Assembly: GCA_002007425.1 (NCBI GenBank)
Contig: MUGK01000007.1
Location: forward strand, 1-38,752
Source of the DNA: Chromatiales bacterium USCg_Taylor
GTDB lineage: Bacteria; Pseudomonadota; Gammaproteobacteria; JACCXJ01
DNA: 38,752 nucleotides
Direction of reading: 5' to 3'
Shown: positions 1,408 through 26,702 of the stretch, in pieces
Layout of the letters: the number at the start of each line of letters is the position of its first letter
Position numbering within the stretch: position 1 is the stretch's first letter
The notes under the pieces: generated by a model
Seen by the model: the letters and a program-made list of their open reading frames with translations, nothing else
Told to the model about the DNA's origin: nothing
The model's database searches: none
Translations under genes and position numbers: made by a program

Positions 1408-2736
1408 ATGAGCTCATTAGCGACGATTACAGAAACTCCACCGACAAGCGCCGAACGCCTGGGCAGCCACTTGATTGCCGCAGGCAAGCTCTCGCGGGAG
1501 GGGCTCGAGAGCGCCTCGCGCCTGGCGCAAACCAATGCCGAACATCTCGGGACGGTGCTGGTCAAGCTGGGCCATGTTTCGGAGCGGGACCTAGCGGAAG
1601 CCCTCGCGGCGCTGCTCGAACTTCCGCTCCTCGCCGCGGACGCCTACCGGGACACACCGATCTATGAAGAGCAGGTCTCGGCGAAGTTCCTGAAAACCGC
1701 TCGGGCGATCCCCATCTTCGAGCAGGATGGTGCCCTGGTCGTGGCGATGGCCATGCCCGAGGATACCTATGTCATCGAGGCGCTCACGCTTGCCTGTGGG
1801 CGGCCCGTTCGGCCGGCCATCGGCGTGACTTCGGAGATCCTCACCGCGATCGAACGGCTGTACGGAACCGGTAAAACGGTTCTCGACCAGATCGTCGATG
1901 ACATCGAGACGCGCACCGAGGTGAGCGAGCAGGAAGATATCGAGCGGCTCAAGGATCTAGCCAGCGAAGCCCCGATCGTGCGCTTGGTGAACCACCTCAT
2001 CAATCGCGCCATCGACTCGCGCGCCTCTGATATTCATATCGAGCCGTTCGAGAACCGGCTCAAGGTCCGCTACCGCATCGACGGTGTGCTGCACGAGGTC
2101 GAATCCCCGCCCGCCCGCTCCACCGCCGCCGTGATCTCGCGCGTGAAGATCATGGCCAAGCTCAACATCGCCGAACGCCGCCTGCCCCAGGACGGCCGCA
2201 TTCAATTGCGCGTCCAAGGCAAGGAAATCGATCTCCGAATCTCGACAGTTCCGACACTGCACGGGGAAAGCGTGGTCATGCGGGTATTGGACAAACAGGC
2301 CATCAGCTTCGAATTCCAGCCGCTCGGTTTTAGCGACGATGTGCTCAAAGCGTTCCTCGAGATTCTGGATCTTCCCCACGGGGTCCTGTTGGTGACCGGG
2401 CCCACGGGAAGCGGCAAGACAAGCACGCTGTACGCGGCGCTCAAGCGGCTCAACACCCCCGAGCGGAAACTCTTCACCGTCGAGGATCCGGTGGAATACC
2501 AGCTCGAGGGCATCAATCAGATCCAGGTGAAACCGCAGATCGGTCTTAATTTCGCCAACGCCCTGCGATCCATCGTGCGCCAGGACCCCGACGTCATCAT
2601 GATCGGGGAAATCCAAGCCGCGGCGATCGAAGCCCGCATGCGCACCATGTTCCAAGACGGTGTCGTCGACCGTCAACGGCGTCCTGGCGCAGCGCTTGGT
2701 GCGGACGCTATGCATACAATGCCGGCGTCCCTATGA
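1408..2736 (+). CDS. gspE: Type II secretion ATPase GspE, 5' part (broken gene)
   Basis: This is the N-terminal three quarters of GspE, the hexameric cytoplasmic ATPase that powers type II secretion. Residues 1-150 form the MshEN/GspE N domain. The ATPase core follows, with Walker A GPTGSGKT at 331-338 and Walker B DPDVIMIGE at 393-401. Directly after Walker B, the expected His box and about 40 residues of the core are absent. They are replaced by QAAAIEARMRTMFQDGV, a 62-bp copy of sequence from the gene's own 3' end, which also shifts the frame. The last about 24 residues of this ORF are therefore out-of-frame junk. The rest of GspE continues in another frame at 2660-3046. As assembled, the ATPase cannot be functional. 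First gene of the secretion operon. Confidence 0.85.
   Translation: MSSLATITETPPTSAERLGSHLIAAGKLSREGLESASRLAQTNAEHLGTVLVKLGHVSERDLAEALAALLELPLLAADAYRDTPIYEEQVSAKFLKTARAIPIFEQDGALVVAMAMPEDTYVIEALTLACGRPVRPAIGVTSEILTAIERLYGTGKTVLDQIVDDIETRTEVSEQEDIERLKDLASEAPIVRLVNHLINRAIDSRASDIHIEPFENRLKVRYRIDGVLHEVESPPARSTAAVISRVKIMAKLNIAERRLPQDGRIQLRVQGKEIDLRISTVPTLHGESVVMRVLDKQAISFEFQPLGFSDDVLKAFLEILDLPHGVLLVTGPTGSGKTSTLYAALKRLNTPERKLFTVEDPVEYQLEGINQIQVKPQIGLNFANALRSIVRQDPDVIMIGEIQAAAIEARMRTMFQDGVVDRQRRPGAALGADAMHTMPASL
2604..2665 (+). repeat. 62-bp direct repeat, copy 1 (ectopic copy in gspE)
   Basis: Identical over 62 bases to 2923-2984. This copy sits in the wrong place, between the Walker B codons and the codons for SSTVNGVLAQRL, where family members carry roughly 40 other residues. 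The offset of 319 is not a multiple of three, so the reading frame changes. The flanks differ on both sides (T before copy 1, C before copy 2; T after copy 1, A after copy 2). Confidence 0.95.
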
Positions 2737-3046
2737 GGCGCTGCCCGAGATCGTGGAGGAACTGAAACTGCGCGACTATGTGCAAGATAAGAACGTCGTG
2801 CTTTATGAGCCCGTCGGCTGTCCCCAATGCGCGGGGACGGGGTTCCGAGGGCGCACCGCGATCCTCGAGTTTCTAGCCATGACGGATCCGATCCGGCGGC
2901 TGGTGCTCAAGCGCGCCGATGCCGGGGAAATCCAAGCCGCGGCGATCGAAGCCCGCATGCGCACCATGTTCCAAGACGGTGTCGACAAGGCGCTTTCTGG
3001 GATCACGGCCATCGAAGAGGTGTTGCGCGTGACCAACGTCTCCTGA
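2660..3046 (+). CDS. gspE: Type II secretion ATPase GspE, 3' fragment
   Basis: This is the C-terminal part of GspE in frame +2 relative to the 5' part. It begins with SSTVNGVLAQRLVRTLC, the segment that follows the core in intact GspE. It keeps the zinc-binding tetracysteine pair (CIQC and CPQC, about 40 residues apart) and the family ending GITAIEEVLRVT. The GTG at 2660 lies inside the ectopic repeat and is probably not a natural start. The fragment is better read as part of one gene spanning 1408-3046. The legitimate copy of the 62-bp repeat is at 2923-2984, within the helical C-terminal domain. gspF starts two bases after its stop. Confidence 0.8.
   Translation: MSSTVNGVLAQRLVRTLCIQCRRPYEALPEIVEELKLRDYVQDKNVVLYEPVGCPQCAGTGFRGRTAILEFLAMTDPIRRLVLKRADAGEIQAAAIEARMRTMFQDGVDKALSGITAIEEVLRVTNVS
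2923..2984 (+). repeat. 62-bp direct repeat, copy 2 (native position)
   Basis: Identical to 2604-2665. Here the encoded GEIQAAAIEARMRTMFQDGV is in its expected place, near the GspE C terminus and just before DKALSGITAIEEV, so this is taken as the source copy. Confidence 0.95.
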
Positions 3047-3048
3047 GC

Positions 3049-4269
3049 ATGGCGCTGTATCGCTACAAAGCCGCCAACCCCGAAGGCGAGGTCCTCGAAG
3101 GCGAGTTGGAAGCACGCGATCAAGCCGCGGCCATCGAGCGCCTGCAATCGCTCGGTTACATCCCGATCCGGGCCGAGCAAACTCTAGCCGGGGGCGCCAG
3201 ACGCTCGGGCTGGATCACGCTGCGGCGCTCGAAGCGCTTGTCGCAAGCCCAGTTAGTGGTCCTGACCCAAGAGCTCGCCACCTTGCTGCGCGCGCGGCTG
3301 CCGCTTGACCGCGCCCTGGAGGTGCTCATTGATCTCTCCGGCCAGGGAACCGCAGGCCAACTGCTGACACGCATCCGCGAGGGCGTCCACGGCGGCGCCA
3401 CGCTCTCGGCTGCCATGGAGGCCCAAGGCGGTGTCTTCTCGCGGCTTTATCTCAATATGTTGCGCGCGGGCGAAGCGGGAGGCGCCGTCGAGCTGGTGCT
3501 GACGCGTCTGTCCGAATACCTCGAGCGCGCCCGCGAGCTGCAGGAGAGTGTCACCTCCGCGCTCATCTATCCTGCCATACTCCTCGGCGTGGCAGGGCTC
3601 TCGGTGCTGGTGCTCCTGGTGTACGTGGTACCGCAATTCGAGCAGTTATTTTCGGATGCGGGCGCGGCCTTGCCGTTCGCCACCCAAGTGGTCATCTCGA
3701 TGGGAAATTTTCTGCGTGATTACTGGTGGCTGCTCATCCTGGCCGCCGTGGCGATTGGACTCTATTTCCGCAAGCAACTCTCGCAACCCGCGACGCGTTA
3801 CCGCTGGGACCAGCGGTTCCTGAAGCTGCCCTTGGCCGGAGAGCTGATCACGAAGATCGAGGTGGCGCGCTTCAGCCGCATGCTCGGCACCCTGCTCACC
3901 AACGGCGTGCCCTTGTTGAGCGGGCTATCGATCGTGAAAGAGACCCTGGGGAACCAAGTCTTGGCGGAGGGCGTGGGCACCGTCGCCGAGCGCCTGAAAC
4001 ACGGCCACGGGCTTGCCGAGCCCTTGACAGAGATGGCTTATTTCCCTCGCCTTGCCGTACACATGATGCGCGTGGGGGAAGAGACCGGACAGCTCGAAGA
4101 GATGCTCATGCAAGTGGCCGAGGTCTATGATCGCGAAGTGCGGGCCACGGTCAAGCGCATGCTGGCGCTCTTGGAACCGGTACTGATCCTGGGCCTCGGT
4201 CTCGTGATCGCGGCCATCATCATGTCGATCCTAATCGCGATCTTGAGCGTAAACGAGCTTGCGTTTTAA
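3049..4269 (+). CDS. gspF: Type II secretion inner-membrane platform protein GspF
   Basis: Encodes a 406-aa polytopic inner-membrane protein that forms the base of the secretion machine and contacts GspE and GspL. The N-terminal region starts MALYRYKAANPEGEVLEGEL, the family opening. Two T2SF repeats follow (about 70-195 and 270-395), each ending in hydrophobic helices, for example LLGVAGLSVLVLLVYVVPQF near 175-195 and a last helix at about 375-400. The length fits the family. The frame stays open upstream to 2827, but the ATG at 3049 gives the conserved N terminus and lies two bases after the gspE stop. The gene looks intact. Confidence 0.95.
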   Translation: MALYRYKAANPEGEVLEGELEARDQAAAIERLQSLGYIPIRAEQTLAGGARRSGWITLRRSKRLSQAQLVVLTQELATLLRARLPLDRALEVLIDLSGQGTAGQLLTRIREGVHGGATLSAAMEAQGGVFSRLYLNMLRAGEAGGAVELVLTRLSEYLERARELQESVTSALIYPAILLGVAGLSVLVLLVYVVPQFEQLFSDAGAALPFATQVVISMGNFLRDYWWLLILAAVAIGLYFRKQLSQPATRYRWDQRFLKLPLAGELITKIEVARFSRMLGTLLTNGVPLLSGLSIVKETLGNQVLAEGVGTVAERLKHGHGLAEPLTEMAYFPRLAVHMMRVGEETGQLEEMLMQVAEVYDREVRATVKRMLALLEPVLILGLGLVIAAIIMSILIAILSVNELAF

Positions 4270-4297: not shown

Positions 4298-4729
4298 ATG
4301 AAACGAACTAAGGAACCCCGTTCACCGCGGGGTTTCACGCTCATCGAGTTGCTGGTGGTACTGGTGATCCTAGGGCTGCTCGCCGGTCTCGTGGGACCCC
4401 AAGTCATGAAATACCTGAGCGGGGCGAAAAGCGACACAGCGCGGCTGCAAATAGAGGATCTCGCCGCCACCTTGGACATGTACCGCCTCGAGATCGGCCG
4501 CTATCCCACGAGCAACGAGAGTCTCAATGCGCTGGTCGAGGCGCCGGCCGGGACCGAACGCTGGAATGGGCCCTATTTAAAGAAGAAGCAAGTACCCAAA
4601 GATCCCTGGGGCTTCGACTACCAGTACCGGTTTCCGGGTGAACACGGCGATTTCGACCTGTACACGCTCGGCGCGGACAACGCCGAGGGCGGTGAGGGCG
4701 AGAACCGGGACATCGGCAATTGGCAATAG
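4298..4729 (+). CDS. gspG: Major pseudopilin GspG
   Basis: Encodes the 143-aa major pseudopilin that builds the periplasmic piston filament. It has a short basic leader ending SPRG, the prepilin peptidase site before FTLIELLVVLVILGLLAG, and the conserved Glu at mature position 5. The C-terminal part contains GPYLKKKQVPKDPWG and DFDLYTLGAD, regions that form the calcium-binding loop in GspG. The frame is open from 4259, but AGAGGA about ten bases before the ATG at 4298 and the leader length favour that start. It follows gspF after 28 bases. Confidence 0.93.
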   Translation: MKRTKEPRSPRGFTLIELLVVLVILGLLAGLVGPQVMKYLSGAKSDTARLQIEDLAATLDMYRLEIGRYPTSNESLNALVEAPAGTERWNGPYLKKKQVPKDPWGFDYQYRFPGEHGDFDLYTLGADNAEGGEGENRDIGNWQ

Positions 4730-4739
4730 AGTTTCGCCT

Positions 4740-5171
4740 GTGCCCCGCGGGTTCACGCTGGTCGAGCTTTTGATCGTATTGGTCATCGGCGGCCTCATGC
4801 TGTCCGTGGTTCCTCCCCTGTTCTCGAAAGGCGTTACGGGCGTGGAGTTGCGCGCGGCCGCGCGCGAAGTAGCCGCGGCGCTGCGCTACGCCCGTAGCCG
4901 GGCGATTAACCGCCACGTCGAATCCACCGTGACGGTAAACCTCGCCGATAAGCGCTATGAGATCAGCGGACGCAAAGGTACCCGAACGCTACCGCAAGGG
5001 GCCGACATCAAGCTAGACACCGCCCGCTCGCAGACGCGTTCCCAAACCACCGGGGCGTTTCGATTCTACCCGGACGGCAGCTCGACCGGCGGTCAGATCA
5101 CGCTCTCGAGCGGCCCGTTGCGGTATGTCGTCGATATCCATTGGTTGACCGGCCGCGTTGCGATTCACTGA
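4740..5171 (+). CDS. gspH: Minor pseudopilin GspH
   Basis: Encodes a minor pseudopilin of the tip complex. The N terminus PRG before FTLVELLIVLVIGGLML is the type IV prepilin peptidase site and transmembrane helix. The rest (AAREVAAALRYARSRAINR and a beta-rich C-terminal domain) fits the GspH/FimT fold. The start is uncertain. GTG at 4740 gives an unusually short four-residue leader. An ATG at 4638 would overlap gspG by 92 bases and add a non-family extension. No strong ribosome binding site is visible, so coupling to gspG termination is likely. The 3' end overlaps gspI by 14 bases. Confidence 0.85.
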   Translation: MPRGFTLVELLIVLVIGGLMLSVVPPLFSKGVTGVELRAAAREVAAALRYARSRAINRHVESTVTVNLADKRYEISGRKGTRTLPQGADIKLDTARSQTRSQTTGAFRFYPDGSSTGGQITLSSGPLRYVVDIHWLTGRVAIH

Positions 5172-5565
5172 TCACTGGCGGGGCGCGCGCGGCTTTTCCT
5201 TACTCGAGGTGTTGGTCGCGTTCTCGATCTTGGCCATCGCCTTAGGCGTGCTGCTGCAAATCTTCGCCACCGCCCTGCGTAGCAGCAAGCTCGGCGCCGA
5301 GTACACGGAGGCGGTCTTGTGGGCCGAATCCTTGCTGGCAGGCGCGGATCTGGAGACGGCACCGCCAGGCGAGGAGACGGGAGACATCGCCGGCCGCTAT
5401 CAGTGGACGCGCCACGTCCAACCCTATATTCCCGCCCATCTCGACCCGGCAAAGCTGCCGCTCGACGCCTACCGAGTCACGGTCAGCGTGCTCTGGCAAG
5501 AAGCCGCGAAAAGGCGCGCGGTTACCCTAACTAGCTTGAGGCTGCGCCCGCGGCTGCGCCGATGA
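5158..5565 (+). CDS. gspI: Minor pseudopilin GspI
   Basis: Encodes a 135-aa minor pseudopilin with the cleavage site ARG before FSLLEVLVAFSILAIALGVLL, the Glu at mature position 5 and a GspI-like middle (SSKLGAEYTEAVLWAESLLA). GspI nucleates the tip complex with GspJ and GspK. Translation appears to start at TTG 5158, inside the end of gspH, giving a 12-residue leader; no ATG or GTG is available nearby. The stop overlaps the gspJ start as ATGA, so the two are translationally coupled. Confidence 0.88.
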   Translation: MRFTDHWRGARGFSLLEVLVAFSILAIALGVLLQIFATALRSSKLGAEYTEAVLWAESLLAGADLETAPPGEETGDIAGRYQWTRHVQPYIPAHLDPAKLPLDAYRVTVSVLWQEAAKRRAVTLTSLRLRPRLRR

Positions 5566-6275
5566 CGACGCTGCAGCGCGCGGGCGGCGGATTCACGCTC
5601 GTCGAGCTCTTGCTCGCACTTACCCTCACCGGCCTCATCATGGTGGCGCTCTACAGCGGATTGCGGGTCGGGACCCGCGCCTCGGACGCCGCCGAGACGC
5701 GGGCAGCCCTGACCGAGGATCAGCGGGCGGTCGCCGGTTTCATTTCGCGCCAGGTAACCCGCGCCTATCCCCTCGTCTGGCTCGACCAAGGCGAACAGCA
5801 GCTTGTATTTCGCGGCAGTTCTCGATCCCTAGTCTTTACCGCCAACTCACCCATCCGGGGCGAGCCGGGCGGGCTCTACATCGGCGCGATCGAGCTCGTC
5901 AGCGGCGGCCGGCTCGTATTCACCTATTGGCGCGCCGAACCCGATCTCGACGACCCGTTGGTTGCTCCCGAGCACGCTCGCCGAACCGTGATGCTCAACC
6001 GCGTTCAGGACGCCCTGTTCTCCTACTACGGGAAATCCCGCCGCGTCACCGCATGGCACGACACCTGGAACGACGACCAACGGCTTCCGGCGCGCGTGCG
6101 GCTCACTATCAAGACCGCAAGGCACGGCGACTGGCCCGTGCTCGTGATCCCGATCCATGCGGAACCGGACACCGGCGAACCGCAACTGCTCATGCAGCCG
6201 CCCGAATCCGCAGACGAATCTGATCCGAACCTGGATGTTGACGAGTTCGGCGACGAGGATCCCGAAGGTTTCTAG
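5562..6275 (+). CDS. gspJ: Minor pseudopilin GspJ
   Basis: Encodes a 237-aa minor pseudopilin with the leader MTTLQRAGGG, cleavage before FTLVELLLALTLTGLIMVAL, and the GspJ-type segment RAALTEDQRAVAGFISRQV. The C-terminal half is the beta-rich GspJ domain. It ends in an acidic tail (DVDEFGDEDPEGF) that is longer than usual. GspJ joins GspI and GspK at the pseudopilus tip. The start overlaps the gspI stop by four bases. Confidence 0.92.
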   Translation: MTTLQRAGGGFTLVELLLALTLTGLIMVALYSGLRVGTRASDAAETRAALTEDQRAVAGFISRQVTRAYPLVWLDQGEQQLVFRGSSRSLVFTANSPIRGEPGGLYIGAIELVSGGRLVFTYWRAEPDLDDPLVAPEHARRTVMLNRVQDALFSYYGKSRRVTAWHDTWNDDQRLPARVRLTIKTARHGDWPVLVIPIHAEPDTGEPQLLMQPPESADESDPNLDVDEFGDEDPEGF

Positions 6276-6296
6276 CCTCCTGGACGTTTACGCACT

Positions 6297-7208
6297 ATGA
6301 AAGCTATACCGGCGCCGGCGATGGAGCAGGGCCTCGCGCTCGTGATCGTCCTCTGGATGGTGGCCTTGCTGAGTATCGTGGCCGCCAGCCTGGCTTTCAG
6401 CATGCGGACCGAGACCACGCTGGCTCACGACCTCGTGGCACAGGCACAGGCCCGCGCGCTCGCCGAGGCGGGCGTGTATCGCGGCATCCTTGAACTGTAC
6501 AATCCCGATCGCTTGCGTCGCTGGCGCGGCGATGGCAGCTCCCACCGGATCCGCTTCGGGGGGGTGCCGATCACGGTGTCGCTGCAGGACGAAGCGGGCA
6601 AGATCGATCTCAATAGCGCGCAGCGCGATCTCCTCGGCACCTTGCTCCGGGCCTCGGGTATGGACGACGAGCGGCGTGATGCGCTGCTCGACGCGATTGA
6701 AGACTGGCGTGATGCGGATAGCTTGCGGCGCTTGAACGGCGCCGAAGATCAAGAATACGAAGCCGCCGGCAGGACCTACGGGGCCAAGGACGCTACGTTC
6801 AATACCGTCGAGGAGCTGCAACAGGTGCTCGGTGTGACACCGCGCTTGTTCAAGCGTCTGCGGCCCGCGCTTACCGTGCACTCCCATTCGGCGGGTATAG
6901 ACGTTCAGCTGGCGCCGCCCGCGGTCCTGCGCGCATTGTTGCTGTCCGATCAAGACGCCGAGCCTGATCTCGAGGAAATCCTCGCCCGCCGGGGCGACGA
7001 TGCCGCGGAACCCGGCAAGAGCTCGCCCGATGCAGTCACGCCGGTTATCGACCCCCGCTTTGCGGCGCCAAGTAATGGTGTAATCTATACCGTGCGGGCC
7101 GAGGCCAGGTTACCGGCCCAGACGCGCGCTTCCGTCGCCGCAACCGTAAAACTAGCTCGCCGCTCCGGAAGACCGTATACCGTGCTCGCGTGGCAGGAAG
7201 GCGATTGA
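6297..7208 (+). CDS. gspK: Minor pseudopilin GspK
   Basis: Encodes the 303-aa tip pseudopilin GspK, the largest of the set. The leader ends EQG before LALVIVLWMVALLSIVAASL, a hydrophobic helix. The following QDEAGKIDLNSAQRDLL is the hallmark GspK signature. The middle keeps the large alpha-helical insertion (helix-hairpin-helix-like DDERRDALLDAIEDWRDAD) characteristic of GspK. The length fits the family. It starts 21 bases after gspJ. Confidence 0.93.
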   Translation: MKAIPAPAMEQGLALVIVLWMVALLSIVAASLAFSMRTETTLAHDLVAQAQARALAEAGVYRGILELYNPDRLRRWRGDGSSHRIRFGGVPITVSLQDEAGKIDLNSAQRDLLGTLLRASGMDDERRDALLDAIEDWRDADSLRRLNGAEDQEYEAAGRTYGAKDATFNTVEELQQVLGVTPRLFKRLRPALTVHSHSAGIDVQLAPPAVLRALLLSDQDAEPDLEEILARRGDDAAEPGKSSPDAVTPVIDPRFAAPSNGVIYTVRAEARLPAQTRASVAATVKLARRSGRPYTVLAWQEGD

Positions 7209-7225
7209 GAGTTAGAGAAAAAGCA

Positions 7226-8338
7226 GTGTCTAGCGTCGGGAGGTTAAACATCGATCGGGTGCGGGCGCAGGCACGCGGGTTCTTCGATTGGTGGTTGAGC
7301 GAGCTTTGGATGCTGTTGCCGGACTCGATACGGCGGCTGGCAAACATAGAGCCGGAACGCTGGATCGTGCAATGGCTCGACACCGAGATCGAGGTTGTTC
7401 GGGAGAGCGACGGGCATGATCCGGCCGTCCCGCGTTCCCGCTTCTCTGCCGCCGCGCCGTCGGAGGTTGCGTTGGAGGCATTGCGGCATCTCGGGAGCGA
7501 TCGGACGCCCGCAACCGAAGTGATACTGGAGCTACCGCCGCAGCGCGCGTTGCGCCGGGAGGTACACCTGCCGCTGGCTGCCGAGGAAAACCTCAGGGAG
7601 GTCCTCGGTTACGCCATGGACCAGGAGACGCCGTTTAAAGCCGGCCAGGTCTACTACGACTTTCGTGTCCTCGAACGAATTACGGCAGCAAAGCGTTTGC
7701 GGGTCGAGCTGACTGCCATCCCCCGCGTCTCATTGGATGAGATCCTCGGCAAACTCGCACCGTTCGGCCTGCATCCCGACCGGGTACGGACGCCGGAAGC
7801 GAGAGGCAACGGTAATGAGATCAATTTACTGCCGCTCGACCGGCGGCGAGTGAAAACGCCTATCTGGCAGGGCCTGAATCTCGCCCTAGCAGCTGCGGTC
7901 GCCGCTCTACTCGCCGGCGCCGTGACCGTACCCTTGATACAGAAGCAACGGTCTATTACCGTGATCGAAGGCCGAATCGCCGAAGTTAAGACACAGGCCC
8001 AGGCCGTGCACGATCTGCATCGGCAGCTCGAAGTCTTGGCCAGCGACTCCCGCTTTCTCATCGAGAAAAAGAAGGCGACGCCGGTAACGATTGGGGTTCT
8101 GGACGAGCTTACCCGCGTGCTGCCCGACGACACTTGGCTGTACCAGTTTGAGATCAACGGGATAGAAATGACGATGCAAGGTGAATCTTCCACCTCCTCG
8201 GCGGTCATTGGCCTCATAGAGGCATCGCCGTTATTTAAGAACGCCTCGTTTCGGTCGCCCGTAACCCAAAACCGCCTAACCGGCGCCGAGCGTTTCAATC
8301 TCGCCGCCGAAGTGCTTGCGGAGGCCGGCTCATCATGA
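7226..8338 (+). CDS. gspL: Type II secretion protein GspL (PilN-domain type)
   Basis: Encodes the bitopic inner-membrane protein that links GspE to the periplasmic parts. The cytoplasmic N-terminal about 210 residues are divergent, with ELPPQRALRREVHLPLAAEENL resembling the GspL/PilM actin-like fold. A single membrane helix near 213-235 (LALAAAVAALLAGAVTVPLI) is followed by a PilN-like periplasmic domain (VLDELTRVLPDDTWLYQFE). The frame is open from GTG 7190, inside gspK. GTG 7226, downstream of a purine-rich stretch, gives about 370 aa and was preferred, but the choice is uncertain. The stop overlaps gspM as ATGA. Confidence 0.85.
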   Translation: MSSVGRLNIDRVRAQARGFFDWWLSELWMLLPDSIRRLANIEPERWIVQWLDTEIEVVRESDGHDPAVPRSRFSAAAPSEVALEALRHLGSDRTPATEVILELPPQRALRREVHLPLAAEENLREVLGYAMDQETPFKAGQVYYDFRVLERITAAKRLRVELTAIPRVSLDEILGKLAPFGLHPDRVRTPEARGNGNEINLLPLDRRRVKTPIWQGLNLALAAAVAALLAGAVTVPLIQKQRSITVIEGRIAEVKTQAQAVHDLHRQLEVLASDSRFLIEKKKATPVTIGVLDELTRVLPDDTWLYQFEINGIEMTMQGESSTSSAVIGLIEASPLFKNASFRSPVTQNRLTGAERFNLAAEVLAEAGSS

Positions 8339-8934
8339 TGGAGCGCCTCACCGCGGGTCAACGCCAAGGGGCGGCCGTCGGCCTGCTGTTACTGCTGCTC
8401 GCCGCTTTATATATGGTCTTTATCCAACCGCTGGTTTCGGTCTACGGAGATTACGGAGAGCGGATCGCGGATCTCCAGAATCGATTGGCGGGTTACGAAC
8501 GCGTCGCGAGCCGTAGCACCGAATTACAGCAGCAGTTCGCGCGGCTCAAGGGGCAACTATCCAAGCAACAACGCGGGTATTTGCAGGGCAACACGCGCGC
8601 ACTCGCGGCCGCGGAGATGCAACAGCATGTAAAGAAGGTCGTTGAAGCAAACGCTGGACGGCTCAATAGCATTCAGATCATGCCCGACACGACAGAGGAT
8701 GGAGGCAAAGCCGACGCCAAGCAACCCGTATCGATCAAGGTCCAAATGTTGGGTTCCACCGAGACGGTACAACGCGTGTTTCACACCTTGGAAGCAGGAC
8801 AGCCGCGCATGTTTGTCGATCAAGTGTATCTGCGCGGCCGGAACGCTTATCAGTTCCGGCCGGGGAAACCACCGAATGACGAGCTGGATATTCGCTTTAG
8901 TCTCTCCGGTTTTATGGCGCTTGAGAAGTCATGA
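8335..8934 (+). CDS. gspM: Type II secretion protein GspM
   Basis: Encodes a 199-aa inner-membrane protein with an N-terminal helix (QGAAVGLLLLLLAALYMVFI), then a coiled coil (about 40-85) and a small ferredoxin-like periplasmic domain. This is the GspM/XpsM architecture, and it partners GspL. Family recognition rests mainly on architecture and position between gspL and the gspN-like gene. The start overlaps the gspL stop by four bases, and its own stop overlaps the next gene by four bases. Confidence 0.85.
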   Translation: MMERLTAGQRQGAAVGLLLLLLAALYMVFIQPLVSVYGDYGERIADLQNRLAGYERVASRSTELQQQFARLKGQLSKQQRGYLQGNTRALAAAEMQQHVKKVVEANAGRLNSIQIMPDTTEDGGKADAKQPVSIKVQMLGSTETVQRVFHTLEAGQPRMFVDQVYLRGRNAYQFRPGKPPNDELDIRFSLSGFMALEKS

Positions 8935-9578
8935 AGTGGCTAGGATCCATGAGTGCCGTCACCATGACGCTGGGCGCGCTGTGTGCGGTACTGGGTCTCG
9001 TGCTCGCCTATGAGCTCGCGGTCCCCTCGGAACCAGTGCAGGTCGACGCGGCAACTACGGACCTGCCTTGGAAGGCGCCCGCCGTCGAAAGCGACTTTAC
9101 CTTACCTCCGTTGAGTCAATTCCAGGAAATCATCACCCGCCCCCTATTCTTGAAGACACGCCGTCCGGCGCCGAGCGCGAATACCGGTGCCGCGACGCAG
9201 TCCACTTCGGAGACTCCCTTGAGCAAGTATGCCGTCTCGGGCGTCGTGATCACACCCGAGCAACGCTTCGCTTTGATTCGCGGAATTAACGACAACACGC
9301 TCCAGCGCGTCGCGGATGGCGAGGAGTTTCATGGTTGGACCGTGAAAGCGATTGAGCATGAAGGTGTGGTATTCACACGAGAGCGAGAACAGGAACGTCT
9401 ACCGTTGCTCCGCAAAACCCCGGAGAAGTTCAAGGTGGCCGCCCAGCGCGCCGCGCTCCTGGCCCGCAGGCGACTCGCCATCCCCGCGCCACGGAATCCC
9501 GCCGCGCCACCCCGGGCGCCAGCCCAGCAGCCACCCCTGGAATCCGGAGAACGGCCCGAGAGAGGCCCGCGCGATTAA
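8931..9578 (+). CDS. gspN: Type II secretion protein N (GspC/XpsN-like)
   Basis: Encodes a 215-aa bitopic protein with an N-terminal membrane helix (about 8-28), the segment FQEIITRPLFLKTRRPAP, and a small beta domain (KYAVSGVVITPEQRFALI ... VADGEEFHGWTVKAIEHEGV). This matches the homology region of GspC/XpsN, the link between the inner-membrane platform and the secretin. The tail after about residue 165 is basic, then Pro-rich and probably disordered. Its place between gspM and gspD is where Xanthomonas-type operons carry xpsN. It overlaps gspM by four bases. Confidence 0.75.
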   Translation: MKWLGSMSAVTMTLGALCAVLGLVLAYELAVPSEPVQVDAATTDLPWKAPAVESDFTLPPLSQFQEIITRPLFLKTRRPAPSANTGAATQSTSETPLSKYAVSGVVITPEQRFALIRGINDNTLQRVADGEEFHGWTVKAIEHEGVVFTREREQERLPLLRKTPEKFKVAAQRAALLARRRLAIPAPRNPAAPPRAPAQQPPLESGERPERGPRD

Positions 9579-9732
9579 GGCGGCCTAATATCGAAGTGAT
9601 CTTATATTTATCGGATAACACCATGACTAAGGAGATTTTTATTTTAAGTTCGCTTATAGTAGTGTGAGAAATCTCCGCGGGCCGACACCAGTCCCTCGCC
9701 GCACTTGGCACAATTGGGGTTATCAAGCTGTA

Positions 9733-11895
9733 ATGGACCTTAGGGCGCTGTGGGTTCGATGGATCTTAGTAGTCGCCGGCCTTAGCGTTGGTGGCGCCTG
9801 TACCGTGTCGCATCCGCACAAGCCGGAACCGAGCGTTTCTATCGCCCGCGCGCCGTCGCCCCCGGTGATCCACCCCGCGCCTCCGCCCATCAGCGAGGTC
9901 ATCTCGCTGGGAGACCCCGACGACAAGAAACCCCTCAAGACCGAAGTCAAGATTTATCCCGGGAGCGGTACTTTCGTGAAACCGCAAGGCGGATACAAAG
10001 GTCCACCGCCGAGCGACGATAGGGGAGAATACACGCTCAACTTCGAAAACACCGATTTGCAGGAGGTGGTCAAGGCGGTCCTGGGCGATCTCCTCAAGGA
10101 GAACTATTTCATCGACCCGAAGGTGGCGGGGACGACCACGATTCAGACGACCCGGCCGCTCAAGCGGCACGAGTTGCTACCGACGCTGGAAAACCTGCTG
10201 CGCTTGAACGGCGCCTCGCTGCTGCGAGCCGAAGGCATGTACAAGATCCTCCCTTCGGCGCAAGCCGCCCGCGGTTCCCCGCCGTCGTCGGTGAGCCGGC
10301 TCGCGGCGGCGCGCGGTTTTACGATTCGCGTCGTGCCGCTGCGTTACGCCTCCGCCCGCGAGCTCCACAAGTTAATCGAGCCCTTCTTGCCTCAAGACGC
10401 GCCGCAAATCGTAGACGCGCAACGCAACCTTTTGATCCTGACCGGGAGCGAGCAGGAAATCCAAGCCGCCGTGGAGCTTGTGGAGCTGTTCGACGCGGAT
10501 TGGCTCAGCGGGATGTCGATGGCGCTGTTCAAGCTTCAGCACGCCGAGGTCAAGACGCTGCACGGCGAGCTGGAAAAGATCTTTGGCGAAAAAGACAGTC
10601 CCCTGGCCGGGGTTGTGCGGATGGTGCCGGTGGAGCGCCTCAACGCGCTGCTCGTCGTCTCCTCGCGTCCGGGTTATCTCGACCAGGCGCGGAACTGGAT
10701 CGAGCGCTTGGATCAAATAGGCGATTCGGTCAGCCCGCGCCTCTATGTTTATCGCGTACAAAACGGCAAGGCGGCCGATCTTGCCGCCGTGCTCGGCGGG
10801 ATCTTCGGCGCCGAGGCCAAACCCTCCGAAGCGGGCGCGCCACCGCCGGAATTCGCTCCCGGCGAAACCCAAACCACGCTCGAAAGCGAGGCCGAACCAC
10901 CCACTCCGGGCGGAGGCTTGAGCAAAAGCACGCGCTCCAAGACCAAAGGGACAGAACGCGGCGGCGTGTCGGTGGTCGCGACCGAGACCCTGCGCATCAT
11001 CGCCGACGAGACTAACAACGCACTTCTGATCATGGCCAAGGTGCAGGACTATAAGATGATCGAGGCCGCGCTGAAACGCCTGGATGTCATCCCGCTGCAG
11101 GTGCTGATCGAAGCCACTGTCGTCGACATCACGTTGACGGATGATCTGCGATACGGGATCGAGTGGTTGTTTAGGAACAGCGCCCCAGGCAGCGGCAACA
11201 TTGGCCAGGGTAAGCTCGACCTAGCGGGGCTTGACGCTATAGCTCCAGGCTTTTCTTATGCGCTAATGTCAGGCAACCGAGTTAGGGCCGTATTGAACGC
11301 GCTGGCTGACCAGGGCAAGCTGAACGTCCTGTCTTCGCCTTCCTTAATGGTACTCGACAACCAAACTGCAACCATTAAGGTGGTCGATGAGGTGCCGGTC
11401 ATCACCCAGGCGCGGACACCGGTGGACACAGTGAACCAAGATAGCATCGACCAACTCCAATCCGTCGAGTTCAAGGAGGTCGGCGTGATCCTCGAGGTTA
11501 CGCCGCGCGTCAACCTCGGCGGGCGCATCACCCTCGATCTCAGCCAGGAGGTATCCGAAGTCGATAGAACCCCCGCCCGGGTAAATACTGCGGGAAATCC
11601 CTCGTTCATCCAACGCAACGTACAGACCACCGTCACCGTCCAGAGCGGTGAGAGCCTCGTCCTCGGCGGCTTGATCAGCGAGACCAAAATCCAGTCGAAC
11701 AGCGGTATCCCATTCCTCAAGGATATCCCTGTGCTCGGGGCTCTGTTCAGCCAGACCCGGGACTTCACCGATCGCCAGGAGCTTATCGTCCTGCTGACCC
11801 CTCGGGCGGTTCGTGACGAGGCCGAGGCGCGCGCGGTGACCGAGGAGTTTCGCCACCGGTTGCGCGAGCTGGAGTCCATCAAGCCGGGCGGTTGA
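9733..11895 (+). CDS. gspD: Type II secretion outer-membrane secretin GspD
   Basis: Encodes a 720-aa secretin that forms the outer-membrane channel. The signal peptide ends in GGAC with Cys23, a weak lipobox. The N0 domain (YTLNFENTDLQEVVKAVLGD) begins near residue 105. N1-N3 modules follow, with a Ser/Gly/Pro-rich loop at about 360-410. The C-terminal secretin domain contains NVLSSPSLMVLDNQ, VPVITQ and the closing motif IPFLKDIPVLGALF, then QELIVLLTPRAV. ATG 9733 was chosen because the upstream extension to 9664 lacks signal-peptide character. It is separated from gspN by 154 AT-rich bases, so a separate promoter is possible. It looks intact. Confidence 0.93.
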   Translation: MDLRALWVRWILVVAGLSVGGACTVSHPHKPEPSVSIARAPSPPVIHPAPPPISEVISLGDPDDKKPLKTEVKIYPGSGTFVKPQGGYKGPPPSDDRGEYTLNFENTDLQEVVKAVLGDLLKENYFIDPKVAGTTTIQTTRPLKRHELLPTLENLLRLNGASLLRAEGMYKILPSAQAARGSPPSSVSRLAAARGFTIRVVPLRYASARELHKLIEPFLPQDAPQIVDAQRNLLILTGSEQEIQAAVELVELFDADWLSGMSMALFKLQHAEVKTLHGELEKIFGEKDSPLAGVVRMVPVERLNALLVVSSRPGYLDQARNWIERLDQIGDSVSPRLYVYRVQNGKAADLAAVLGGIFGAEAKPSEAGAPPPEFAPGETQTTLESEAEPPTPGGGLSKSTRSKTKGTERGGVSVVATETLRIIADETNNALLIMAKVQDYKMIEAALKRLDVIPLQVLIEATVVDITLTDDLRYGIEWLFRNSAPGSGNIGQGKLDLAGLDAIAPGFSYALMSGNRVRAVLNALADQGKLNVLSSPSLMVLDNQTATIKVVDEVPVITQARTPVDTVNQDSIDQLQSVEFKEVGVILEVTPRVNLGGRITLDLSQEVSEVDRTPARVNTAGNPSFIQRNVQTTVTVQSGESLVLGGLISETKIQSNSGIPFLKDIPVLGALFSQTRDFTDRQELIVLLTPRAVRDEAEARAVTEEFRHRLRELESIKPGG

Positions 11896-21922: not shown

Positions 21923-24010
21923 TCAGTAATCCACCCAGTCGGTCCAGTGTTTCGTGAGCATCTCGCGGTTGACGACGCCGTCCTTGTCCTTGCTTATCTT
22001 GAAGAGTTGGCCCTGTTCGCAGACGACCTGGGACTTGCCGTTCTTGAGACTTGCGGCGGCGGCGTCAAGCGCGCCTTGGGTGTAGTAGACGGAGAAGTCG
22101 GTCAGCTCGATTTGGAGCGCGAGCTTATCTTTCTTGTCGTAGCGCGGCGTGGCTTCGACGAAGCTCACGTCGTGGAACACCACCTGGCCCTTGTCCACGG
22201 CGCGTTTGTCGAAAACCTCGGCCGGGATATATTTGGGAGCGAGGTCGATGCCCTTTTGCCTGGCCTCGTCCAGCACCGCGGGGAAGAGGCCCATCTCGAA
22301 CTCAAAGGCCAGCACGTCCACGCGCGAGGCGCCGCGCTTGCGGCATTCGGTGATGACCTCTTCCACGAACAACCGGCCCACGGGCAGGTTGATCGGGCCG
22401 ACCACCACCAGCCGCCCCGCGTTCTTGCCGTGGAAGACGCTCGCGTCTTCGAGCGGCTGGGTGCGGTAGGCGCGCAGGATGAGATCGCGGAACTCGCGTT
22501 CCTTTTGCGTCAGGATGCGCCGCTGTCTTTTTTCCCTTGTCATTCCGGCCGACGAGCCGGAATCCACTTCTGATAATTCTGGATTCCCGCTTTCGCGGGA
22601 ATGACGGTCGAGGGAAAAATTGACACCGAGATACGCCTGGCGCTCGTAACGGCCGAGGTTCAGTACCTCGAAGGCGCGGAACGGTTTGCCCGATTCCTTG
22701 AGATCGCGCTGCACCTGAATGAGCCGCTTGCGCGTGGTGTGGATGGCGAACTTGCCGAGGTCGGTGCAGATCCACTTGCGGCCAAGCTTTTCCGCCACCG
22801 CCGCCGTAGTGCCGGAACCGCAGAAGAAGTCGGCGACCAGATCGCCGTCGTTACTGCTGGCTTTGAGGATCCGTTCGAGCAGGGCTTCGGGTTTTTGGGT
22901 GGGATACTTTGTATCTTGCAGCGATTGCGAATTTACAGCCGGGATGTCTGCCCAAAGGGACTGCAAGGGGACACCTGGCATCTCGTCGAGGTAGTAGATT
23001 CTGCGCGGGACTTCGTTACTGGTATATTCGATGCGTCCAGCGGCTTGGGGCGCCTTCATCTTTTCTTCAGTGAGTGTCCAAATTCTGCCCTTTGGCGGGG
23101 CCTTGCCTTTCCAAAGATAATTTGCCGGACGACCATGCGCCGGTGCGTCGAGTGTGACGAGTTGGTAAAACCGCCCAGATACATCCGCCTTAAAGTGGCT
23201 CTTGATGTATGACCCTTCGTATGGAGCATAAGGCTGGTTCCAGACATGGCGATCTGGAGATTTGGTGTAGAACACGAGGGAGTCACAAGTGTTGCCATTT
23301 TTCCCTGGACCGTTGTGGGCATAGGTTCGCCGCCAGGTGATGTCATTTTGGAGGCAGTTCCCGCCAAAAACCTCATTCAGCACGAGTCGCAGGAATGCAT
23401 TCACCCGCCAATCGCAATGCACATAAATACTCCCCTCCTCAGCCAGCAAATCCCGCATCAGGATCAACCGCTCGTAGATCATCGAGATGAACGAATCCGC
23501 CCCGCGCCCCCAGGTGTCCCGGTAGGCGATCTGTTCGAGCAGGTTCGGTTCCTTGTGGAAGGTCTCACCGCCAATCTCGATGTCCATGGAGAAGTCGGCG
23601 CCGACATCGAAGGGCGGGTCGATGTAGATGAGCTTCAAGCCGCCCGCCTCCTCGATCTGCCGGCGCAGTGCGCCGCTCTTGAGCGAGGACAGGATCAGCT
23701 TGTTGTCGCCCCAGATGAGCTTGTTGGTCCAGCCCTTGAGCTGACGGCCGCGGAAATCGAAGAGATCGAGCTGCGGCGATTCCGGCGCCTCCCGGCGCGG
23801 CTCGTCCACGTGCTCCAGCGACTGGAACGGCAAGACGGTGGTGCAGACCTCGCGGCTCTTGCCGTTCCACACCAGCTCCACCTCGCGCTTGTCCTCGAAC
23901 AGGACGAAGCGGTATTGCTCCGGCAGCGGCTTGCCCTGCTGGATGAGCTGAATCAGATCGCGCTTCTCGGCGTCCGTCAGGTCATAAACGGGTTTGCTCG
24001 CGCGGGACAT
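21923..24010 (-). CDS. Type III-like DNA methyltransferase Mod (C-terminally truncated)
   Basis: Encodes a beta-class site-specific DNA methyltransferase of about 695 aa as read. The catalytic DPPF motif is at 131-134 (YIDPPFDVGADF) and the S-adenosylmethionine motif FCGSGTT at about 396-402. The order DPPF before FxGxG is typical of type III Mod and of N6-adenine/N4-cytosine methylases. TRKRLIQVQRDL and RLFVEEVITECRKRGASRV follow. Residues about 468-492 (DRHSRESGNPELSEVDSGSS) come from an inserted palindromic repeat. Translation stops at a TGA where relatives have Trp, so about 115 codons are lost. ATG 24010 was preferred over TTG 24019. It is last in the group res-vapB-vapC-mod. Catalytic motifs are intact, so activity remains possible. 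Confidence 0.85.
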   Translation of the reverse strand: MSRASKPVYDLTDAEKRDLIQLIQQGKPLPEQYRFVLFEDKREVELVWNGKSREVCTTVLPFQSLEHVDEPRREAPESPQLDLFDFRGRQLKGWTNKLIWGDNKLILSSLKSGALRRQIEEAGGLKLIYIDPPFDVGADFSMDIEIGGETFHKEPNLLEQIAYRDTWGRGADSFISMIYERLILMRDLLAEEGSIYVHCDWRVNAFLRLVLNEVFGGNCLQNDITWRRTYAHNGPGKNGNTCDSLVFYTKSPDRHVWNQPYAPYEGSYIKSHFKADVSGRFYQLVTLDAPAHGRPANYLWKGKAPPKGRIWTLTEEKMKAPQAAGRIEYTSNEVPRRIYYLDEMPGVPLQSLWADIPAVNSQSLQDTKYPTQKPEALLERILKASSNDGDLVADFFCGSGTTAAVAEKLGRKWICTDLGKFAIHTTRKRLIQVQRDLKESGKPFRAFEVLNLGRYERQAYLGVNFSLDRHSRESGNPELSEVDSGSSAGMTREKRQRRILTQKEREFRDLILRAYRTQPLEDASVFHGKNAGRLVVVGPINLPVGRLFVEEVITECRKRGASRVDVLAFEFEMGLFPAVLDEARQKGIDLAPKYIPAEVFDKRAVDKGQVVFHDVSFVEATPRYDKKDKLALQIELTDFSVYYTQGALDAAAASLKNGKSQVVCEQGQLFKISKDKDGVVNREMLTKHWTDWVDY
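22539..22605. repeat. 67-bp double-hairpin palindromic repeat inside mod
   Basis: The ends GTCATTCC and GGAATGAC are inverted. Between them lie two hairpins: ATTCCGGC/GCCGGAAT (loop CGACGA) and ATTCCCGC/GCGGGAAT (loop TTTC). This is the GTCATTCCCGCGAAAGCGGGAAT type of dispersed repeat known from many proteobacteria. It is embedded in the mod coding region without breaking the frame. Confidence 0.85.
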
Positions 24011-24015
24011 GGCGC

Positions 24016-24467
24016 TCAAACAAGTATGTCCTCAAAGGACAATACAGCGATGCGCCGCCGTGCAGCGGTCTTGATCCGCTTATCCCCGGTGATGAAGGCG
24101 TGGCAACCCACAGAAAGCGCCGCAGCTAGATGAAGCGCATCGGCAAGCTTCAACCCGCGGTGCTTCGCCCGCAGTTCGGCGGACAGGTCCGCGACGGCGT
24201 CGTTCACTGAATTATGGCGATCGGCCCCGGCCGGGCGAGCATGGTCCGGTATATCTCTGCCAGACGGTCGTTACCGCTTCTCAAAGGCTGCACCAGGACC
24301 TCGGCGCGGACGATGGGCGAAACAAACGCCTGGACTTCACTGGAACTGACAGCCTGCAAGAGGGAACGGACAGCGGCGGGCTGTGTGGCGGCGTCAGTTT
24401 CTATGGCGTAGATGAGCGCATTGCTGTCGAGGTAAATTCGTTGTCCCCGTAGTTTCTCAATGCTCAT
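24016..24467 (-). pseudogene. vapC: VapC-type PIN-domain toxin, frameshifted
   Basis: Two overlapping frames together make one PIN-domain ribonuclease of about 150 aa. The 5' part (24467 to 24204) has the first acidic residue in RIYLDSNALIYAIE and the Glu in SPIVRAEVLV, then ends at a TGA after PIAIIQ. The 3' part (24207 to 24016) continues NDAVADLSAELRAKHRG. It holds the remaining acidic residues in LKLADALHLAAAL and FITGDKRI. The total span is 452 bases, one short of a multiple of three, so a single-base deletion near 24206-24212 explains the break. All four catalytic acids survive in the DNA. It overlaps vapB by 11 bases, and its stop lies six bases before the mod ATG. Confidence 0.8.
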
Positions 24468-24745: not shown

Positions 24746-25846
24746 TCAGTGCTGATAGTCCCGGAAGGCGGCGGTAAAGCCGGCGAAGTCCTTGGTTGGC
24801 GTACGCTCAAAGCCCTGCTGGTCCACGTAGAGGAAACGGTACTCGGGCCCGCCCTCCACTTGGCTCGCGCTTGTCGCATCCACGCACCACTGCTTGAGCC
24901 GGGCCATTTTTTGCGGCAGGTCAATCTCCTCGCGGCCCTTGGTTTCGACGATCCAGACCGTGCCGTCGGCGGTCTTGGCGAGAAAGTCGGGAACGAAGCC
25001 GACGGCGAGGTAGTTCTTGGCGAAGGCGACGACATCCGGCGCCTCGTCGAGAAAGCGCGCGAAGCGGAGCTCGAAGCCGCCGGCATGTGGCTCACCGACG
25101 ATTTTGCTGAACAGCGATTTCTTGGGCGCGAGGTAGGGCCGGTTCTCGGTGCGGAAGGGACGGGTGTCGCGCAGGCGGACGCGATCTTCGATACGGGAGG
25201 TGCCGGTATCCTGAACCGTGAGCGCATTGATGGCTTGCTTGAACGAGTCGAACAGGAGCTTCCCGGCCTCGGGCTCGGAGAGGTTGCGCAGCACCACCGG
25301 ATCTTCGAGGTTGACCGGCTTTGCTTCGAACAGATGCCCGGCCATGAACGCTCTGACCTTCGGATAGAGCACGTCGTAGCCGCCCACGAGGCGCAGTTCC
25401 TTCAACAGTTGGCGGGCGAAGAAAGCAACCACGGAGCGGTAGTCCGCGGGGCCGGCACTATCGAGCCGGATGGTGTGATGCACTTCGGCATCGAGCATGG
25501 TCTTGAAGACGATCTCGCGCGTCTCTTCCGGCGTGAAGGGTCTAAGCGGAAGCTTCGGATTGCCGAAGCTTGCCGGATCCAGCGCTTCGAGGTTCTTGTA
25601 CTCGCGGTTGAAGCGGCGCGAGAGTTTCGGGATTTCAATGTCAGCACATCGAGGTTCTTGTGGCGTTCTGGGTGTCCACCTCGACAATGAGCGAATCCTT
25701 GCGGCCGGCGCCCGGCCCCATCGGCACCCGTTCGAAGGTGACTCCCTCGCTTTGAATGCTTTCGACGAACTCCATGAAGGCGGGCGTGCCCATGACCGCG
25801 ACGGTCTCCGGGATTTCAGATCCGAAGTACATCCGCCGTAGACCAC
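24746..25846 (-). pseudogene. res fragment: C-terminal nuclease part
   Basis: This open frame holds the last third of Res. Genuine family sequence begins at about 25637 (ADIEIPKLSRRFNREYKNLE). It includes KELRLVGGYDVLYPKVRAFM and AINALTVQDTGTSRI. It ends with a PD-(D/E)xK nuclease core, VGFVPDFLAKTADGTVWIVE followed by TKGRE, which would cut DNA in the intact enzyme. The first about 70 residues upstream of 25637 in this frame are antisense-like junk overlapping the middle fragment. The nuclease residues are intact, but the part is out of frame with the rest. Confidence 0.75.
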
Positions 25847-26177
25847 GCCCTATGGTTTGTTCGGGGAGTATGTTGCTTGGGGCGGCGAACGCGCGCAGGC
25901 CAACGATGGTGGTGACGTTGCGCACGTCCCAACCCTCCTTGAGCATCAGCACGGAGACGATGGCTTTGTAGGGGCTGGCCCAGGAGTCGATCGCGTTCGC
26001 CTGTTTGCGCAACAGCTCCAGTTCGTCTTTGTGCTTGCCGGTGGATGCCTCGGAGATCTCGCCGTTGTTCTTGGTGTGAATGATCAGCACCGCGTCTTGC
26101 AACTCGGGACAAGTCTTTTCCAGCCAAGCGCCAACCTCGTCGCAGTTGCGGGTGTCGTCCACCATGACGAAGAGCAC
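25641..26177 (-). pseudogene. res fragment: helicase second-domain part
   Basis: This open frame carries AKKAVLFVMVDDTRNCDEVG (partly upstream of the nominal start), HTKNNGEISEASTGKHKDEL, the motif V region VLMLKEGWDVRNVTTIVGL and the motif VI arginine fingers in EQTIGRGLRRM. It ends VDTQNATRTSMC at a frameshift stop. Family sequence extends upstream in the same frame to about 26274. It is an internal piece of the broken res gene rather than an independent gene. Confidence 0.7.
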
Positions 26178-26702
26178 CGCCTTCTTGGCCAGCGTCTCGT
26201 GCTCCGCGTAGCTCTTTCGCCACTCTTCGATCCCGAGTTGCAGATAATCGGCATAGCGCTCGGTAAAGATCGCCTGTCGCCATCTTTAGGACATAGCGCG
26301 GCCAGTCCTCGTCGAACATCCCCGCCGAGACCGCGCCCGACGCGTCGAATCGGAGGAGGTCGAACTTGTCCCTGACCTTACGCGCGTCAAGCAGCCAGAT
26401 CACCGTTTCCACTGCTTCCCGCTGCGCGAAGTAATACCGGAACGGCGACAGCGTGCCGTCGGCCTGCTCGACCGGGTGCTCGGTCTCGAACCACCAGTTC
26501 AGGAGCGCGCGCGAGGTCTCCGAGGCGCCGGCGTAGCCCGCACCCCGCCACACCGCGACGTCACCGCGTACCTTGGCGACCAGGGGGGCGGCAGTAGCTT
26601 TTCGTAGGCCGTGTTCCGCAGTTCTTCCGCGGCCGGAAACCAGCGCCGGCCCGGCGGCAGCACCGCATAGGGCGATTCAGGAAAGTCAGGATGCAGTGCC
26701 AT

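Follow-up and report, generated by a model that had tools for sequence, protein, structure and literature searches.

The gspE gene that opens a type II secretion operon is broken in the stretch of DNA analysed here (the window: contig C203, positions 1-38752, 38,752 bp), where the coding sequence behind the Walker B motif gives way to an exact copy of a segment from the 3' region of the same gene. In our judgement the break probably arose as an error of local assembly or gap closing; the genome is a draft and probably derives from a metagenome. Loss of the ATPase as a matter of biology is the less likely reading, and the finding is probably an ordinary one.

Structure of the gspE lesion

Two open parts of gspE lie on the plus strand. 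The 5' part (1408-2613, 402 codons) encodes the N-terminal domain, Walker A (GPTGSGKT) and Walker B (DPDVIMIGEI), and the 3' part (2666-3046), open in another frame, begins with STVNGVLAQRL and encodes the CxxC pairs and the C-terminus. The TIGR02533 profile matched the former over positions 3-321 (7e-129, 430.6 bits) and the latter over positions 368-486 (5.2e-36, 124.3 bits). The gene therefore carries, with high scores, all the domains of a GspE-type secretion ATPase outside the lesion; unlike such ATPases, it lacks profile positions 322-367 (46 positions, including the His box) and its frame is broken, so that no complete GspE can be obtained from the contig sequence. Walker A and Walker B are present, the stretch holding the His box is missing, and the frame is shifted behind Walker B; the two partial matches do not reach the curated cut-off of TIGR02533 (630 bits, full profile).

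Compared with the relatives, the native core missing between Walker B (…IGEI) and STVNG amounts to 46 codons, or 138 nt. The first-pass annotation had proposed that roughly 40 residues, among them the His box, were lost and that a 62-bp copy stood in their place. The core with its His box is indeed gone and the copy is where it was said to be, but the loss is somewhat larger, and the foreign patch, at 2614-2665, comes to only about 52 nt, since the copy opens with bases that are expected at that site anyway. With 52 nt in place of 138 nt the net change is -86 nt, which shifts the frame.

Directly downstream of gspE, gspF (3049-4269, plus strand) is intact and has NCBIfam XpsF/GspF matches, and gspG, H, I, J, K, L, M, a gspC-like gene and gspD (4298-11895, plus strand) are all open. 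The position of gspE as the first gene, with gspF, G, H, I, J, K and D behind it, is that of a gsp operon. The earlier claim that the other ten secretion genes are intact stands as far as open frames go; F, G, H, I, J, K and D are also matched to their families, while L, M and the C-like gene are assigned by position and open reading frame only. A search of the window for Rfam families and tRNA genes returned none.

The copy responsible for the break is one of a pair of exact direct repeats of 62 bp, whose presence, position behind Walker B and effect on the frame were all borne out. Copy 1 (2604-2665, plus strand) lies directly 3' of Walker B, such that DPDVIMIGEI is read in the gspE frame, followed by copy 1 and then by SSTVNGVLAQRL in another frame. 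Copy 2 (2923-2984, plus strand), which occupies its native position in the region coding for the C-terminus (GEIQAAAIEARMRTMFQDGV), aligns without gaps with the relatives and is presumed to be the source of copy 1. The copies are 319 bp apart in the contig, a spacing that would be 405 bp in an intact gspE, and they show no divergence (100% identity). The pair is the sole exact direct repeat of at least 28 bp within the window, and its length is far beyond chance, as 40 sequences simulated from the window with a second-order Markov model had longest exact repeats of 13-19 bp. No internal exact repeat above 14 bp was present in the gspE of 61 recognised intact relatives, no further copies of the 62-mer were found outside gspE, and a search of viral contigs for the junction sequence found none.

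In about 1.05 Mb of the genome, the gspE case was the only out-of-frame local copy seen. Other near repeats were considered as a sign of systematic misassembly and rejected, since those examined in contigs C5, C37 and C140 are mobile-element remnants or in-frame tandem domains. In C140 (3567-4090), a nearly exact in-frame tandem duplication of 174 bp at a spacing of 348 sits in a protein with repeated extracellular domains, CARDB-like by eye.

At the left junction, the copies already differ at 2603, one base upstream of the repeat, and no more than 11 nt can be shared (CGGGGAAATCC), because the codon after GEI encodes an Arg that is invariant in the relatives. At the right junction the copies diverge after 2665, and the homology may range from 0 to 6 nt according to which codon natively precedes STVNG. 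Short shared sequence had been suggested at both junctions. The left junction allows it, up to 11 nt; the TCG proposed for the right would need a native Ser, whereas the closest relative has Thr (ACC), which would give no homology, and most of the others have Thr as well.

Relatives, selection and other broken genes

The gspE core was compared in 84 relatives, four from a whole-genome search and 80 from genome contigs, and 83 of them are intact across it. The nearest relative, which shares the family but not the genus and is 81% identical in DNA over the stretch tested, has 46 codons between GEI and STVNG, as have nearly all the others; a second genome of the species was sought and none was found. 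The one exception, Methylobacter MAG WM.3.3 (L122), has a frame break in gspE shortly before Walker B, judging from its translation alone.

Apart from the replaced core, no lesion was seen in gspE, and its two halves have their match in one and the same gene of the nearest relative. The dN/dS values against the nearest relative were 0.14 for the 5' part, 0.21 for the 3' part and 0.20 for gspF (327 codons), which, at the level of sequence comparison, shows purifying selection on both halves of gspE like that on gspF and no trace of decay. A decayed gspE was accordingly rejected as an explanation, both halves being constrained.

The first-pass annotation had also suggested looking for the missing segment or a second gspE elsewhere. 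Neither turned up in the genome bin, in which no short contig carries the missing core; apart from the two halves of gspE themselves, the only matches were to three PilT/PilU-like genes, all on contig C84. On C84 (around 4960-5050, minus strand), a pilU-like gene flanked by a pilT-like gene and another pilU-like gene is frameshifted and has apparently lost a short segment ahead of Walker A. A PF00437 search of the genome showed no pilB-like gene.

Within the window, the type III restriction gene res (24746-26700, minus strand) is a pseudogene, and the neighbouring mod gene (21923-24019) is open. The frame of res is shifted in a run of C near 26588 and twice more, by one base each time, near 25650, and near 26270 everything between KMATG and FTERYADYLQLG, comprising Walker A and the helicase core, is lost. 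This core deletion was considered as a second join point and rejected on account of the several further small frameshifts in the gene. As the lesions of at least this one gene are several and resemble natural decay, real pseudogenes do occur on this contig.

Draft assembly and contig order

The genome is a 246-contig draft of 2.96 Mb, estimated to be 93% complete with a contamination of 0.48%. Our survey listed about 120 of its contigs, of which 118 could be placed in series and about 105 were read. Contig numbers track decreasing length, with the exception of 49 of the 118, each of which is longer than its slot. C203 is one of these: at 38,752 bp it stands between contigs of 12,433 and 12,272 bp, roughly three times what its rank would predict, and therefore was apparently extended or joined after the primary assembly. 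The series is most simply read as contigs that were sorted by length and of which some, probably including C203, were extended or joined afterwards.

Short internal N runs occur in four sampled contigs, C113 (at 6052, 3 N), C8 (4399, 5 N), C31 (12065, 4 N) and C118 (5233, 46 N), and all four are out of order (one-sided Fisher p = 0.044). Such runs mark contig joins; the NNN at 6052 of C113 is flanked on both sides by the same 8 bp (ATCGATCT), and two of the runs coincide with frame breaks in genes. An excess of frame breaks in joined contigs was not found, the candidates from a noisy detector numbering 8.49 per 100 kb in out-of-order contigs and 7.75 in those in order. At the left end of C203, positions 1-110 of the window are repeated on C5 (8793-9510) and C37 (about 340-390), near a remnant of a REP-associated transposase, and the contig probably stops there because its sequence recurs in the genome.

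Origin of the break

The first-pass annotation had named template switching or microhomology recombination on the one hand and assembly error on the other, making no choice between them. Either may have produced the observed sequence, and we favour the assembly error because of the draft status of the genome and the evidence that C203 was joined after the primary assembly, because the copies are without divergence and gspE is otherwise undamaged, and because the distance to the source in an intact gene fits the usual short-read insert. According to this hypothesis, coverage would have failed inside gspE, leaving a gap; reads from about 400 bp downstream may then have extended the left contig through the 11-nt match (CGGGGAAATCC) during joining or low-k local assembly, and the false left end would have been fused to the right contig. 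The organism itself would then possess an intact gspE and a complete secretion system.

Scaffolder errors with duplicated flanks, as well as local assembly errors, have been described for MAGs (Chen et al. 2020, PMC7111523), and high mis-assembly rates have been stated for gap closing (PMC9575681). Like the MAG errors, the gspE break would place a short stretch of incorrect sequence at a single site within a gene of a draft, in a genome with other short N-run joins, one of them with duplicated flanks; it would differ from them in being an exact local copy joined by very short overlaps. The origin from similar k-mers that had been proposed is doubtful, since the shared sequence of at most 11 nt at the left and 0-6 nt at the right is below a k of 20 or more. 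Only gap closing or a local assembly at low k could make use of the left match, and the right join is left without an explanation. Some assemblers perform local assembly at a k near 10-11 and could use the 11-nt match at the left, the right join needing a forced fusion. Other points tell against an artefact: the joined contigs are not clearly richer in frame breaks, the bin has no short contig with the missing core, and real pseudogenes lie on the same contig.

A real and recent double template switch, by which gspE would truly be lost, is the main rival reading, and one that we find rather unlikely. During replication or break repair, the growing strand would have switched at a match of up to 11 nt, copied about 50 nt from about 400 bp downstream and switched or been joined back 138 nt further on. 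Events of this kind leave locally templated DNA where native sequence has been deleted, with a short homology at one junction, which is the anatomy seen here; the left junction does allow 11 nt of homology, and other broken genes exist in this genome. In E. coli, microhomology-mediated junctions of 2-15 bp and complex products have been described (PMC2621351), and the gspE allele resembles templated insertions of the MMBIR/FoSTeS type in that sequence from nearby has been copied into the site of a deletion, the left junction sharing up to 11 nt; it departs from them in that its right-hand microhomology (0-6 nt) is only putative and in being known from one draft contig. Two switches are needed, however, the right-hand homology may be nil, the copies have not diverged, neither gspE nor the ten neighbouring genes carries other damage, and all but one of the relatives are intact at the core. 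We doubt that, in this uncultivated, gammaproteobacterium-like organism, a genuine two-step templated insertion has very recently disabled the secretion ATPase while leaving the remaining type II secretion operon intact. A minority strain or a chimeric library molecule (a strain variant or template switching during amplification), with the junction chosen by the assembler at thin coverage, would explain joining at very short homologies, which an ordinary k-mer assembler would not do unaided, and is compatible with a draft from a mixed population, but it is very improbable, given that two switches would seldom fall within one read length and that direct evidence of strain mixture is lacking at an estimated contamination of 0.48%.

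With a local assembly or gap-closing error as the preferred reading, the case illustrates that one bad join can mimic gene loss in a draft genome and mislead pathway calls, which in this instance would give a secretion system lacking its motor. If the mutation were true, it would be a clean and recent bacterial double template switch, a mutation of a known kind.
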